Of a stretch of DNA of 37,451 nt, positions 1,234 through 18,241 are shown piece by piece. Made by a program: the position numbers and the translations under genes. Numbering within the stretch: the first letter of the stretch is position 1; each line of letters begins with the position of its first letter. Origin of the DNA: a virus. The notes beneath the pieces were generated by a model that was not told the DNA's origin, ran no database searches, and saw nothing but the letters and a program-made list of their open reading frames with translations. The stretch spans positions 1 to 37,451 of the IMG/VR virus record IMGVR_UViG_3300014501_000039; one strand, 5' to 3'.

Positions 1234-1413
1234 ATGCGAATGCGATATCGCGACGGCACCGAGGACGATGACGAACTATTTGATTTGCTTTTGGAGTGTC
1301 AGAGATCCTATGTGGCGCGCTGCATTCAGCTTGGTCCAAACTGGATTAAAGCATGCTTATCCGGTTGCCACACACAAACGCTGAGACCTACTAGATATAG
1401 GAGACAACAATGA
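1234..1413 (+). CDS. 5' part of a gene split by cassette 1 (59-aa truncated product)
   Basis: ATG 1234 follows the upstream stop by 4 bp. The frame encodes an acidic start (MRMRYRDGTEDDDELF) and native-looking sequence through LGPNWIK, encoded up to 1351. It then enters the inverted-repeat end of cassette 1 and ends at TGA 1411 with cassette-encoded residues (LSGCHTQTLRPTRYRRQQ). If 1352-1945 is removed (cassette plus one 8-bp duplication), the frame continues without a break into 1946-2055 and gives a 75-residue protein. The present product is therefore a truncated fusion. Function of the intact protein is unknown. Confidence 0.7.
   Translation: MRMRYRDGTEDDDELFDLLLECQRSYVARCIQLGPNWIKACLSGCHTQTLRPTRYRRQQ
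1344..1351. repeat. Left copy of 8-bp target-site duplication (GATTAAAG)
   Basis: GATTAAAG sits directly before the left cassette end CATGCTTATCC and is repeated exactly at 1938-1945, directly after the right end GGATAAGCATG. Confidence 0.85.
1352..1396 (+). repeat. Cassette left end, copy 1
   Basis: 45 bp from CATGCTTATCC to CTACTAGAT, matching 8131-8175 except at one position (C versus T after CCGGTTG). A shortened inverse version occurs at 6571-6606. A ribosome-binding site (ataggagac) for the first cargo gene follows at once. Confidence 0.9.
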
Positions 1414-1667
1414 ACGCCCAAAAATCCATCCGGCTGCAAATTGCGGCCGATTTAGTTGTCGATCTGGCCGATGCCGTAGAAGCCCTTGGAAAGCAGCTCG
1501 ACCGCCTGCATGAAGAAATCGGCGAAGATTTATTCAGCCGCGTTGCACAGGCGTTTCCAGTTGATCATGGGGCTTTCGGCCCCAAAGCAAATGCTGCGTT
1601 AGTTAAGCTGATGCACCAATTGACGCCGCCGGATAACTATGACCGCGCCGATGCGAGGATGCCGTGA
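1410..1667 (+). CDS. Cassette 1 cargo protein A (hypothetical)
   Basis: An 85-residue protein, MNAQKSIRLQIAADLVVDLADAVEALGKQLDRL and onward, predicted largely helical with a possible coiled coil in residues 15-40. ATG 1410 overlaps the stop of the truncated upstream frame and has an aggagacaaca ribosome-binding site just inside the left cassette end. Its stop overlaps the GTG start of the next gene, so the two cargo genes form an operon. No family recognised. Confidence 0.75.
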   Translation: MNAQKSIRLQIAADLVVDLADAVEALGKQLDRLHEEIGEDLFSRVAQAFPVDHGAFGPKANAALVKLMHQLTPPDNYDRADARMP

Positions 1668-1897
1668 AACCGCAGCACCGCTATACCATCGGAAAGCAGC
1701 CCTGCCAAAATCTGTTGCGCGGCGACGCCGACATTGCGGCGCTTGGCGAGGGCAACCGTCGCAATGTCCATCAATGCCCAGTCTGTGAAGGCAATCGGAC
1801 GTGGTGTGAAAACTGCCACACCGACCACCATGACGGCGGATGGGAAACCTGTAAGCCGGGGGCTTATGCGGAGCCGCTAGAGGACGAAGATGCCTGA
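1664..1897 (+). CDS. Cassette 1 cargo protein B, zinc-finger-like
   Basis: A 77-residue protein from GTG 1664, overlapping the upstream stop. The centre reads HQCPVCEGNRTWCENCHTDH, with two CxxC pairs and adjacent histidines that could bind one or two Zn ions; a further Cys follows in WETCKPG. The C-terminus is acidic. The stop is the last codon before the right cassette end. It may be a small nucleic-acid-binding or adaptor protein (inference only). Confidence 0.75.
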   Translation: MKPQHRYTIGKQPCQNLLRGDADIAALGEGNRRNVHQCPVCEGNRTWCENCHTDHHDGGWETCKPGAYAEPLEDEDA

Positions 1898-1937
1898 CAC
1901 AAGATGTAGGGCTGTGTGTCTAAACCGGATAAGCATG
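1898..1937 (-). repeat. Cassette right end, copy 1
   Basis: acacaagatgtagggctgtg through AAGCATG, identical to 8802-8841. It also contains GTGTCTAAACCGGATAAGCATG, a potential GTG start reading outward as MSKPDKH, which is used at the second copy to begin the ThyX fragment. Confidence 0.9.
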
Positions 1938-1945
1938 GATTAAAG
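1938..1945. repeat. Right copy of 8-bp target-site duplication (GATTAAAG)
   Basis: Exact repeat of 1344-1351, on the outer side of the right cassette end. Confidence 0.85.
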
Positions 1946-2055
1946 AACCAATGTGGAAACAGATGATCGACACACTCCTAAGCATCCGACGCAACGACGG
2001 CAAGCAATCGTTCTATCGCGAGATCGGGCGTATGCTGTCGCCTGACTTCCATTGA
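1946..2055 (+). pseudogene. 3' fragment of the gene split by cassette 1
   Basis: Open frame ending at TGA 2053-2055. Joined after residue 39 of the 1234 frame it adds EPMWKQMIDTLLSIRRNDGK and 16 more residues, completing a 75-residue protein. An internal ATG at 1951 could start a 34-residue peptide, but it lacks a clear ribosome-binding site, so it is more likely a remnant. Confidence 0.65.
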
Positions 2056-6570: not shown

Positions 6571-6606
6571 CATCTAGTACCTGTGTGTGTCAACCGGATA
6601 AGCATG
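6571..6606 (-). repeat. Orphan cassette end (left-type, inverse orientation)
   Basis: Reading on the minus strand it is CATGCTTATCCGGTT, GACACACACA, then GGTACTAGAT, i.e. the left end of the cassette family with about 9 bp missing from its middle. No partner end lies upstream. On the minus strand a frame starts at its inner edge (ATG 6573), runs to 6172 and has a protein-like first third (MLTPHTEIPAEG and SPEELEMRAAIRD), then becomes antisense to plus-strand genes. The 6471-6570 stretch may thus be a decayed third cassette. Confidence 0.65.
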
Positions 6607-8130: not shown

Positions 8131-8175
8131 CATGCTTATCCGGTTGTCACACACAAACGCTGAGACCTACTAGAT
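8131..8175 (+). repeat. Cassette left end, copy 2
   Basis: Matches 1352-1396 apart from one C-to-T change. The start codon of the cargo gene (ATG 8174) begins in its last two bases, ctactagATG. Confidence 0.9.
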
Positions 8176-8827
8176 GTTGAGCCTGCCAAAAAACATTGCT
8201 GCGCTCTTTGTCGAAGCCGATGGCGTCTATGCCGGCTTGCCGGGCGTGGACCTGTGGCCGATCGAGCGCGACGCGCGCAAATATGCAGGCCCTTGGCCTG
8301 TTATCGCACACCCAGACTGCAAGCGGTGGGGACGCTTCTGGCACGGCTCGACGCGGAAGCCGCACCAGTTCAAGCTGGGCGACGACGGCGGCTGCTTTGC
8401 CTCTGCGCTCGCCTCCGTGCGGCGCTGGGGCGGCGTTCTGGAACATCCTGCGGATAGCCACGCTTGGCGTGCCTTTGCCCTTACGCCGCCTAGGAAGTCC
8501 GGGGGATGGTGTGTTGCTGATCCCTTCGGCGGTTTGGTCTGCCACGTTGAACAGGGCTTCTATGGGCATTTGTCGCGCAAACCGACTTGGCTCTACACCT
8601 TCGGCACGTCCGCTGTGATGTTTGACCTGCGGTGGGGCCGTGGCGAGCAACGCTTGCATCCTACTGCCCTCGCGAGGCACGGCTACGCGAAGGCCAGGCG
8701 CATCGGCATGATGGCAATGGTCGGCGGTAAGGACAAAACGAAAATCCGCAACGCGACGCCAATCGAGTTCCGTGACCTTCTAATCTCGCTCGCGCGCACA
8801 ACACAAGATGTAGGGCTGTGTGTCTAA
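8174..8827 (+). CDS. Cassette 2 cargo: methyltransferase-like phage protein (unproven)
   Basis: A 217-residue protein. Landmarks: VYAGLPGVDLWP, ARKYAGPWPVIAHPDCKRWG, RFWHGSTRKPHQF, GGCFASALASVRRWGGVLEH, PADSHAW, and a GHLSRKPTWLY segment. I recall similar phage proteins from many actino- and proteobacterial phages, mostly unnamed. The order AHPxCxRWG ... VLEHPADSxAW resembles the PPC/ENP motif spacing of phage C5-methyltransferase relatives, but the canonical FSGxGG and PCQ are absent, so catalysis is doubtful. The last residues (TTQDVGLCV) and stop are encoded by the right cassette end. No clear ribosome-binding site. Confidence 0.8.
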   Translation: MLSLPKNIAALFVEADGVYAGLPGVDLWPIERDARKYAGPWPVIAHPDCKRWGRFWHGSTRKPHQFKLGDDGGCFASALASVRRWGGVLEHPADSHAWRAFALTPPRKSGGWCVADPFGGLVCHVEQGFYGHLSRKPTWLYTFGTSAVMFDLRWGRGEQRLHPTALARHGYAKARRIGMMAMVGGKDKTKIRNATPIEFRDLLISLARTTQDVGLCV

Positions 8828-8841
8828 ACCGGATAAGCATG
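8802..8841 (-). repeat. Cassette right end, copy 2
   Basis: Identical to 1898-1937. It supplies both the stop codon of the cargo gene (TAA 8825-8827) and the GTG start (8820) of the downstream ThyX fragment. Confidence 0.9.
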
Positions 8842-16523: not shown

Positions 16524-16555
16524 GGGAATTATATACATGACTCCCTGCCGTCATT

Positions 16556-16681
16556 TTAGGGCGCCCTTTTGGCAAGCTTGGCCGCCCGGCGCTTGCGGCG
16601 CCGAGCGGGTTTTGATTTTGCCTTGGGCCGGTAGCGGAGAACCTTGTCCGCAACGGCATCAAGGATGGCTGGCGCCTTCAT
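16556..16681 (-). CDS. IS passenger: short basic protein
   Basis: A 41-residue product from ATG 16681, overlapping the stop of the upstream passenger gene. MKAPAILDAVADKVLRYRPK is followed by an Arg/Lys-rich tail (PARRRKRRAAKLAKRAP). It is a nucleic-acid-binding-like basic peptide. It ends 7 bp inside the second IR match. Function unknown. Confidence 0.5.
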   Translation of the reverse strand: MKAPAILDAVADKVLRYRPKAKSKPARRRKRRAAKLAKRAP

Positions 16682-17070
16682 TGTTTCGGCTTCGCCGCGA
16701 GACTGGCGCTGATGCTCACGTTTGCGGCGTTGTAGACCCCATCGCCAGTCCAACTCAGCGAGCCGTAGATATTGACCGTGATGCACTGGTCATCGGTCGG
16801 CTTCGCCAGCATTCCGATAAATGCGCTGGTAGCGTTCAAGACGGCCGCCATGTCAGTGGCGTGTGTCGGCTGCGCGTCCACAACCTTCCGAAATTCACGA
16901 CCAACGGCCTGGGTAGCTTCGCCGCCGGTGTTGGCTGTGATCGAGAACGAATAGCTCATCTGATTTTCCTTCGGTTTGATGATGGTGAAGAACGCACTCG
17001 GTTTTACAATCGGCGGCATGACCCAAGGCGGATCAGGCTCGCGGTAGTCTGGATCAGGTCCGAAGCGCAT
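16678..17070 (-). CDS. IS passenger: hypothetical protein
   Basis: A 130-residue frame from ATG 17070. ATG 16959 is an alternative start (93 aa, MSYSFSITANTGGEATQAVG) with a better ribosome-binding site (GAAGGAAAATCAG). The C-terminal part contains THATDMAAVLNATSAFIGML, CITVNIYGSLSWTGDG and ends ASLAAKPKQ. No domain recognised. It overlaps the neighbouring passenger genes at both ends. Confidence 0.6.
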   Translation of the reverse strand: MRFGPDPDYREPDPPWVMPPIVKPSAFFTIIKPKENQMSYSFSITANTGGEATQAVGREFRKVVDAQPTHATDMAAVLNATSAFIGMLAKPTDDQCITVNIYGSLSWTGDGVYNAANVSISASLAAKPKQ

Positions 17071-17254
17071 CGTCGCCTCGCAATGCTGAACGGCCTACCC
17101 GTTCCGGGACAAAGGGGAACGCCGTACCAAGTTCAAATAGCAACTCTCTGGACCTTTGCTCGCCTAAGACCAGTCCTGCTTTGCGGCACATGGTCTGCAA
17201 AACGCAGATGCCAAGGTAAGCTGCATAGATAGCATCTTCCTGTTCTTTGGTCAT
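17054..17254 (-). CDS. IS passenger: small hypothetical protein
   Basis: A 66-residue protein from ATG 17254, overlapping the transposase stop by 4 bp. MTKEQEDAIYAAYLGICVLQ, TMCRKAGLVLGEQRSREL, then Phe/Pro-rich end. Predicted helical. Coupled to the transposase, so it may be co-expressed at low level. Function unknown. Confidence 0.6.
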   Translation of the reverse strand: MTKEQEDAIYAAYLGICVLQTMCRKAGLVLGEQRSRELLFELGTAFPFVPERVGRSALRGDDALRT

Positions 17255-18174
17255 GCGATCAGCGCCTTGTAGGTAAGCCGCTTCCCGGCAACGCGGCTGA
17301 CAAAGCTATCGAGGCGTTCCAGCGTGTGCCGGGCCACGTTGCCCTCGTTCAACCGGAAGGCAAATTCATCAACGTAGCGGCCGATATGCTTGGGGCTGGC
17401 GTGATGGTAGACGCCGATCAGGCCACGCTTGAGAACGGCGAAAACGCTCTCAATCGAATTGGTCGAAACGCCGTCGCGGACGTACTCGCCTTCGCTGTGG
17501 TTGACGCTGGCGTGGTCGAAGAACAGGCCGCCCATCGCCTGATATACGGCGGCCTCGTCGGTGTGCAGGGTCGAGCCGACCGCGACATTTTGAACGATCA
17601 CGTCTTGGATCGTTTGCGTGTCGGCGGCGCCGATCTTGACGGCCTTCACGCGGCCCCGCTTGCCCTTTTCGCGCATTCCCAAGACGGCCTGCTTTCCGAC
17701 CGTGCCGCGACCGGCTTTGAGCTTCTTGCCTTCGTGCTTGTTGGCTTCGATCCCGCCGACGTAGGTTTCATCAATCTCGACCAGCCCTTGCAGCATCGTC
17801 AGGTCTTTGCCGCAGGCTTCGCGGAGCCGCTGCAACATGAACCACGCCGATTTTTGCGTGACGCCAATCTCCTTGGCGAGTTGCAGGCTAGATATGCCCT
17901 TGCGGGCCGTCACGAGCAGGTACATCGCGTAAACCCACTTGTGCAGCGGAACATGGCTGCGCTCGAAGATCGTGCCGGTGCGCACCGTAAAGTCCTCTGC
18001 GCATTGGTTGCAGCGGTAGAAGCCGCCCTTGCGGGCCGTGATCCGCTCGCCCAGCCCGCAGACCGGGCACGTCGGGCCGTTCGGCCAAAGCCGCCCCTCA
18101 AGGTACGTCCTGGCCGTCTCCGCGTCGGGAAACATCGCGAAAAGCTGGAAGGTCGAAATGGTCGATTTGCTCAT
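17251..18174 (-). CDS. IS1595-family transposase
   Basis: A 307-residue DDE transposase, ATG 18174 (TTG 18180 also in frame). The N-terminal zinc ribbon has CPVCG (36-40) and CNQC (55-58), followed by TVRTGTIFERSHVPLHKWVY, a helix-turn-helix (LQLAKEIGVTQKSAWFMLQR), and the ISXO2-like catalytic core: first Asp in VEIDETYVGG (135), second in HTDEAAVY (206), and the N-S-x-E box STNSIESVFAVLKRGL (239-242), then HIGRYVDEFAFRLNE. Length and motifs are complete, so it is probably active. It would move the 1718-bp element and related ends. Confidence 0.95.
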   Translation of the reverse strand: MSKSTISTFQLFAMFPDAETARTYLEGRLWPNGPTCPVCGLGERITARKGGFYRCNQCAEDFTVRTGTIFERSHVPLHKWVYAMYLLVTARKGISSLQLAKEIGVTQKSAWFMLQRLREACGKDLTMLQGLVEIDETYVGGIEANKHEGKKLKAGRGTVGKQAVLGMREKGKRGRVKAVKIGAADTQTIQDVIVQNVAVGSTLHTDEAAVYQAMGGLFFDHASVNHSEGEYVRDGVSTNSIESVFAVLKRGLIGVYHHASPKHIGRYVDEFAFRLNEGNVARHTLERLDSFVSRVAGKRLTYKALIA

Positions 18175-18241
18175 GTCCAAGCCCTCAATTCATGCCCCGT
18201 TTATAGCAGGAATTGGCGAGGGAGTAAAGTATATAATTCCC

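Follow-up and report, generated by a model that had tools for sequence, protein, structure and literature searches.

We identified the 586-bp interval at positions 1352 to 1937 of the window (the whole 37,451-base virus record analyzed here, which carries tail sheath, baseplate, and endolysin genes) as a mobile insertion cassette (MIC), that is, a nonautonomous and usually single-gene element with the ends of an IS1595 lineage that resides in phages. We regard this explanation, taken as a whole, as likely to be correct. Similarly bounded cassettes were found in many other viral contigs, and we hold with high confidence that they are MICs of the IS1595 type; they are presumably moved in trans, because an IS1595-family transposase is encoded by larger elements that share these ends.

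Cassette A, the interrupted frame, and related elements in the window

The interval, referred to here as cassette A, opens with CATGCTTATCCGGTTGCCACACACA and closes with TGTGTGTCTAAACCGGATAAGCATG, and its ends at 1352 and 1937 read CATGCTTATCCGGTT...AACCGGATAAGCATG. The inverted ends span 25 bp, of which 22 are identical between left and right, as in IS-like terminal repeats, and the 8-bp sequence GATTAAAG lies on both sides of the element, as a sequence-only reading of this DNA had stated. The same reading described two small genes and no transposase, and this proved accurate: transposase is absent, and passenger coding sequence, as expected of a MIC, is present in two open reading frames (1410-1667 and 1664-1897), the start of the second overlapping the stop of the first. 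The left end (LE) consists of the 25-bp inverted end followed by TGA (1382-1384) and TAG (1392-1394); a further TAG (1398-1400) and a ribosome-binding-like AGGAG (1399-1403) lie just past it. In place of the ATG found in the LE of other cassettes, cassette A has ATA; its cargo begins 15 nt downstream, preceded by AGGAG. On the plus strand, the right end (RE) contains TAG (1907-1909), TAA (1921-1923), and TAA (1930-1932).

Excision of 1352-1945 fused 1234-1351 to 1946-2055 in an unbroken frame of 75 residues (MRMRYRDG...NWIKEPMWKQ...PDFH), in agreement with the earlier claim. That claim also counted the restored gene, together with the inverted ends and the duplication, as the signature of a real insertion; while the frame is real, by itself it is weak evidence, since the 586 + 8 bp are divisible by three, the downstream frame has just 36 codons, and searches for the 75-aa protein in viral contigs, among 50,697 phage records, and in relatives sharing the downstream gene yielded no homologue. 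The intact homologue that the sequence-only reading had proposed to look for thus did not emerge, and the case for disruption of a putative 75-aa gene consists of the duplication together with the open frame. Relatives with the same downstream gene offered no empty site for cassette A, because their upstream genes differ. An Rfam search of the window returned no match.

The 25-bp end motif occurred five times in the window, compared to zero occurrences for a reversed-pattern control (Table 1). The earlier reading missed two of the features thus found, namely, a second cassette (cassette B, 8131-8841) and a solo end (6582-6606). The outer 45 bp on the left and 41 bp on the right of cassette B are 98% and 100% identical, respectively, to those of cassette A, while the cargos are unrelated; one pair of ends around two different genes is what would be predicted for a cassette system. 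The RE itself supplies the codons for the last eight residues of the cassette B cargo (TQDVGLCV), and the predicted structure of this protein was unusable (mean pLDDT of 47). No target duplication was found at the flanks of cassette B. A 133-aa open reading frame (6573-6172, minus strand) starts at the ATG of the solo end, for which a search revealed no partner.

Table 1. Coordinates of the cassettes and associated features in the window
Feature	Position	Strand	Basis or remark
5' part of interrupted frame (first 39 codons)	1234..1351	+	Joins 1946-2055 in frame
Target duplication, left copy, GATTAAAG (8 bp)	1344..1351	.	Sequence
Left end, cassette A	1352..1396	+	98% identical to cassette B LE; family consensus
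Cargo ORF 1, cassette A (85 aa)	1410..1667	+	No family match
Cargo ORF 2, cassette A (77 aa), CxxC-type motifs	1664..1897	+	Subthreshold Pfam match only
Right end, cassette A	1897..1937	-	41 nt identical to cassette B RE
Target duplication, right copy, GATTAAAG (8 bp)	1938..1945	.	Sequence
3' part of interrupted frame	1946..2055	+	Frame restored once 1352-1945 removed
Solo LE-type end, short-spacer LE (...GGTACTAGATGTTGACG)	6582..6606	-	End motif
Left end, cassette B; TGA, TAG, start ATG at position 44	8131..8175	+	Comparison with cassette A
Cargo, cassette B (217 aa), PHROG 12600 (unknown function)	8174..8827	+	LE ATG to RE TAA
Right end, cassette B	8801..8841	-	Flanks ATAAGTTA / AATCAACC
Separate, related IS1595-family transposon	16524..18241	-	Ends GGGAATTATATAC, 8-bp duplication TAAATTAT
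Passenger gene of the transposon	16678-17070	-	Inside transposon
Transposase of the transposon	17251-18180	-	28% identical to cassette-family transposase

The window also houses an IS1595-family transposon (16524-18241), which we considered as a resident helper and rejected: its ends are different and its transposase is only distantly related (28% identity). IS1595-family terminal repeats typically begin with GG; the ends of this element begin with GGG, and those of the cassette family begin with CATG. The cognate autonomous IS with the same ends as the cassettes is found in related phage contigs and is absent from the window. Since the window has no helper transposase with these ends, the mobility of cassette A would be either historical or dependent on another element. 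The ends of the 16524-18241 lineage were present in at least 119 viral stretches, with exact duplications in 46 of 66 end pairs; 18 pairs lacked a recognizable transposase, so this lineage may form cassettes as well. The N terminus of the passenger gene in the window's copy resembles the cargo of one cassette of the first family, L014 (RFGPDPDYRE).

A family of mobile cassettes and its presumed transposase

A scan of 2.9 million viral contigs in IMG/VR with the 25-bp motif retrieved 105 stretches, and a variant-motif scan retrieved 16; pairing of convergent ends defined 98 distinct elements. Exact 8-bp duplications flanked 65 of the 97 testable pairs among these 98, far more than chance would give: 2,000 re-pairings of the flanks yielded 0.7 on average and never more than 4. 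About a third of the pairs had no duplication. The duplicated targets are A/T rich, and A occupies the second base beyond the duplication in 49 of 65 cases. Once transposase-bearing, nested, or doubtful pairs were removed, 79 transposase-free cassettes were left, which range from 275 to 1,183 bp (median, 541 bp), have a median coding fraction of 0.85, and, in 70 cases, contain a single open reading frame. When the loci were grouped by long shared DNA outside the cassettes, at least 72 separate groups resulted, and the G+C content of the loci spans 45 to 71%.

The family is almost confined to uncultured bacterial viruses and nearly absent from bacterial genomes. Among 84,980 bacterial and archaeal species genomes (257 Gb), the motif was present in six stretches from five genomes, all titled alphaproteobacteria. 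A convincing pair was found in 1 of 398 genomes from the order of Rhodoplanes, and this was the starting-point genome. Searches of 50,697 phage records revealed neither the left end nor the transposase; 12 of these records do contain the cargo family of cassette B. We initially entertained, and then dropped, the notion of a strictly phage-bound family: at least two of the copies in bacterial genomes adjoin ordinary chromosomal genes (dnaA/dnaN in L114), and the family is therefore phage centered rather than phage exclusive.

Several comparisons point to past movement. A natural empty site was found in another pair of phages: one contig, L015, has a cassette at 1356-1861, and a 99.5% identical contig, L094, is uninterrupted there and has one copy of the 8 bp, with one substitution in the left copy. 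Two nearly identical cassettes (L008 and L024; 98.3%) reside at different targets with the duplications AAATATAG and AATGGATA; the L035 and L119 cassettes, 91.9% identical, likewise occupy different sites, and three cassettes encoding NADAR proteins are related and more diverged. The sequence interrupted by the L102 cassette is itself part of a cassette in L035 and L119. Together with the ends and duplications shared across the family, these loci support the original proposal of a transposase-free cargo cassette that was inserted with a target duplication.

Other arrangements were seen at single loci. An alphaproteobacterial MAG contig (L112:2899-3806) has two tandem cassettes, each bounded by the 8-bp CGTTGATC, which is thus present in three copies in an array-like arrangement. 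In L080:1153-2685, the facing flanks of two cassettes are identical (GAAGGATT) and the outer flanks are different, which points to recombination between cassettes; such recombination may also account for the missing duplication of cassette B. A direct tandem of two family ends, 23 bp apart, was found in L030:1421-1470.

The sequence-only reading knew of no family with these ends in phages; the ends can now be tied to an IS1595-type transposase. Elements of ~1.5 to 2.3 kb that have cassette-type ends and duplications encode a transposase of 347 to 357 aa, in which, for three elements, PF12762 (ISXO2-like; DDE_Tnp_IS1595; 7e-32) and PF12760 (Zn_ribbon_IS1595) scored above the cutoff. With 10 such transposases as queries, 78 loci were retrieved from viral contigs. 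From a total of 63 distinct loci, 53 had a matching right end and 40 had both ends and an 8-bp duplication (one mismatch allowed). End subtypes such as ACATACA and ACCCACA are common to cassettes and transposase-bearing elements, and the latter also carry passenger genes; the passenger region of one such element in L015 matches the L009 cassette cargo at 75% identity. Among 298 genomes from the order of Rhodoplanes, the nearest relative was 43% identical.

Two other explanations were weighed against these data, and we consider both very improbable. Integron-type gene cassettes captured by an integrase (PMC9892861) would also present themselves as single genes in interchangeable packets with little noncoding DNA, as the coding fraction of 0.85 attests here, and some phages are reported to carry integron cassettes (PMC9892861). 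Against this reading, the elements have inverted ends and duplicate 8 bp of a target that differs from case to case, most of the insertions are single, and the matching autonomous elements encode a DDE transposase; for cassettes that have duplications, the integron explanation is refuted. Repeated phage regulatory elements, such as promoter/terminator pairs, could mimic transposon ends, and the presence of translation signals inside the ends and of single genes between them is in keeping with this idea, which is nonetheless refuted by the exact duplications, the empty site, and the occurrence of identical cassettes at different sites.

Stop and start signals in the cassette ends

Counted from the outer C, the common left end presents TGA at 31 to 33, TAG at 41 to 43, the cargo ATG at 44 to 46, and TGA at 48 to 50, so that each frame is stopped no more than 15 nt from the cargo start. 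Within 60 nt, every frame is stopped in 60 of 79 left ends, compared to 20% of shuffles and 4.5% of random phage segments, and a stop codon directly abuts the ATG in 54 of 79 cassettes, compared to 1.5% of random windows; because the ends share ancestry, these counts are not independent. A second class of left ends is 10 bases shorter; its ATG is shifted accordingly and still has CTAG or CTAA beside it, in many cases preceded by GGAG. At position 31 in one aligned class of left ends, change to another stop (four cases) is no more common than loss (six cases), which weakens the claim of a pure stop-for-stop exchange at this position. In many cassettes, the right end places stops at -14, -28, and -41, and in 63 of 79 the last open reading frame closes inside the terminal 44 nt of the cassette.

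Relative to the surrounding coding direction, as defined by simple longest-ORF calls near the insertions, 35 cassettes have the same orientation, 6 have the opposite orientation, and 16 lie in mixed surroundings (P = 5e-6); some apparently intragenic insertions are oriented opposite to the gene. For transposase-bearing elements of the other IS1595 lineage, the ratio was 12 same to 7 opposite, and the contrast between 35:6 and 12:7 is suggestive only (P = 0.09).

We lean slightly toward a role of the ends in frame-independent translational coupling. A transposase of the IS1595 lineage would move the cassettes in trans, giving rise to the 8-bp target duplication. Lying in the direction of local transcription, a cassette would be cotranscribed with phage genes and apparently would need no promoter of its own. 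Ribosomes arriving at the left end in any frame would halt beside the cargo start codon and could reinitiate on the cargo, the frame of which would be closed by the right-end stops. Phages could thereby exchange accessory genes for DNA modification, RNA repair, and metabolism that would work almost wherever they are inserted. It is about an even chance that the ends of this lineage have evolved into portable translation adaptors, enabling accessory genes to be expressed at once in the operons of unrelated phages.

Alternatively, the cassettes could be plain MICs in which a left-end promoter (TTGNCA near position 14 and TACTAG near position 38) drives the cargo and the stops are incidental. Long left ends may contain a weak promoter (TTGNCA, 18 nt, TACTAG), and the corresponding end of transposase-bearing elements has a good promoter-like pair (TTGACA, 17 nt, TAGTAT in L073). 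However, short left ends place the ACTAGATG motif 10 bases nearer the end, which destroys the promoter spacing, and the stop and start are nonetheless kept; moreover, a gene with its own promoter would not need the 35:6 agreement with local coding direction. We therefore consider this alternative unlikely.

Relation to known elements and cargo of the cassettes

The concept of the MIC, with an IS as its mover, is established and comes from Bacillus cereus (PMC3281130, PMC3129680). As with MIC231 and IS231 in this species, the phage cassettes have IS-like inverted ends, a target duplication, one or a few passengers, and no transposase, and in both cases movement in trans by the cognate IS is presumed. 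They differ from MIC231 in that the transposase family is IS1595 rather than that of IS231, in residing in phages, in the many unrelated cargos, and in joining the stop and start signals of the ends to the cargo frame. A passage in PMC3129680 credits IS copies with passenger genes ("transporter ISs") to Siguier, Gagnevin, and Chandler (2009), the paper that founded the IS1595 family. The full-length elements described here resemble this family in transposase domain, zinc ribbon, 8-bp duplications, and passenger genes; the cassettes, in contrast, have no transposase and ends that start with CATG, and the full-length members found here lie in phage contigs. Integron cassettes work in a similar way, in that single genes are exchanged in packets of a standard form; they are inserted by an integrase at attC/attI and lack the inverted ends, the target duplication at many targets, and the matching DDE transposase. 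The phage cassettes showed no sign of an attC site. MITEs and TIMEs (PMC4133298) are also nonautonomous and short, with inverted ends, whereas the phage cassettes are mostly coding and thus do not qualify as MITEs, which have no coding capacity.

Our literature search, the coverage of which excluded most subscription papers and bioRxiv, retrieved no description of IS1595 cassettes in phages. What appears to be new relative to established MICs, since no paper describing these phage cassettes was found, is a set of phage-resident MICs that belong to an IS1595 lineage and whose ends seem to be adapted to translation. Phage mosaicism is usually put down to recombination; the cassettes bear on how phages gain single accessory genes and use them without a promoter, and they represent a defined mover for single genes, including DNA modification and other accessory genes, across many unrelated phages. 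They suggest a second role for transposon ends as translation adaptors and, if this is true, would be a phage counterpart of integron cassettes without a fixed site or an integrase. The end motif can be used to find such genes in viromes.

Pfam assigned 18 families among 86 cargo proteins, including C5 cytosine methylases, Dam, Mom, NADAR (three proteins), RNA ligase, RlaP, radical SAM, ASCH, and an OrfB/TnpB-like protein, to which PHROGs added phosphoadenosine phosphosulfate (PAPS) reductase, DHH phosphoesterase, and nucleotidyltransferase. Among the named classes, DNA modification is the largest; many cargos, including both cassette A genes, have no assigned function. The TnpB/OrfB-like protein is the cargo of a cassette-like element with related ends of the ACCCACA type (L129:5316-6454). 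In L012:5707-6226, L042:6322-7072, and L033:224-909, the cargo protein has short repeats of the YKAK-LAPLDAD type in variable number, and its length varies among these otherwise nearly identical cassettes.

Other parts of the window also contain repeats and potentially mobile genes. A tandem 27-bp G+C-rich repeat (GCGCAGCGACCGCCTCGGGC...) at 1-135 adjoins a C5 cytosine methylase gene (298-987). Three further potentially mobile genes in this one phage (5392-5934, 15969-16538, and 29649-30494) comprise two for HNH endonucleases and one that is homing-endonuclease-like.
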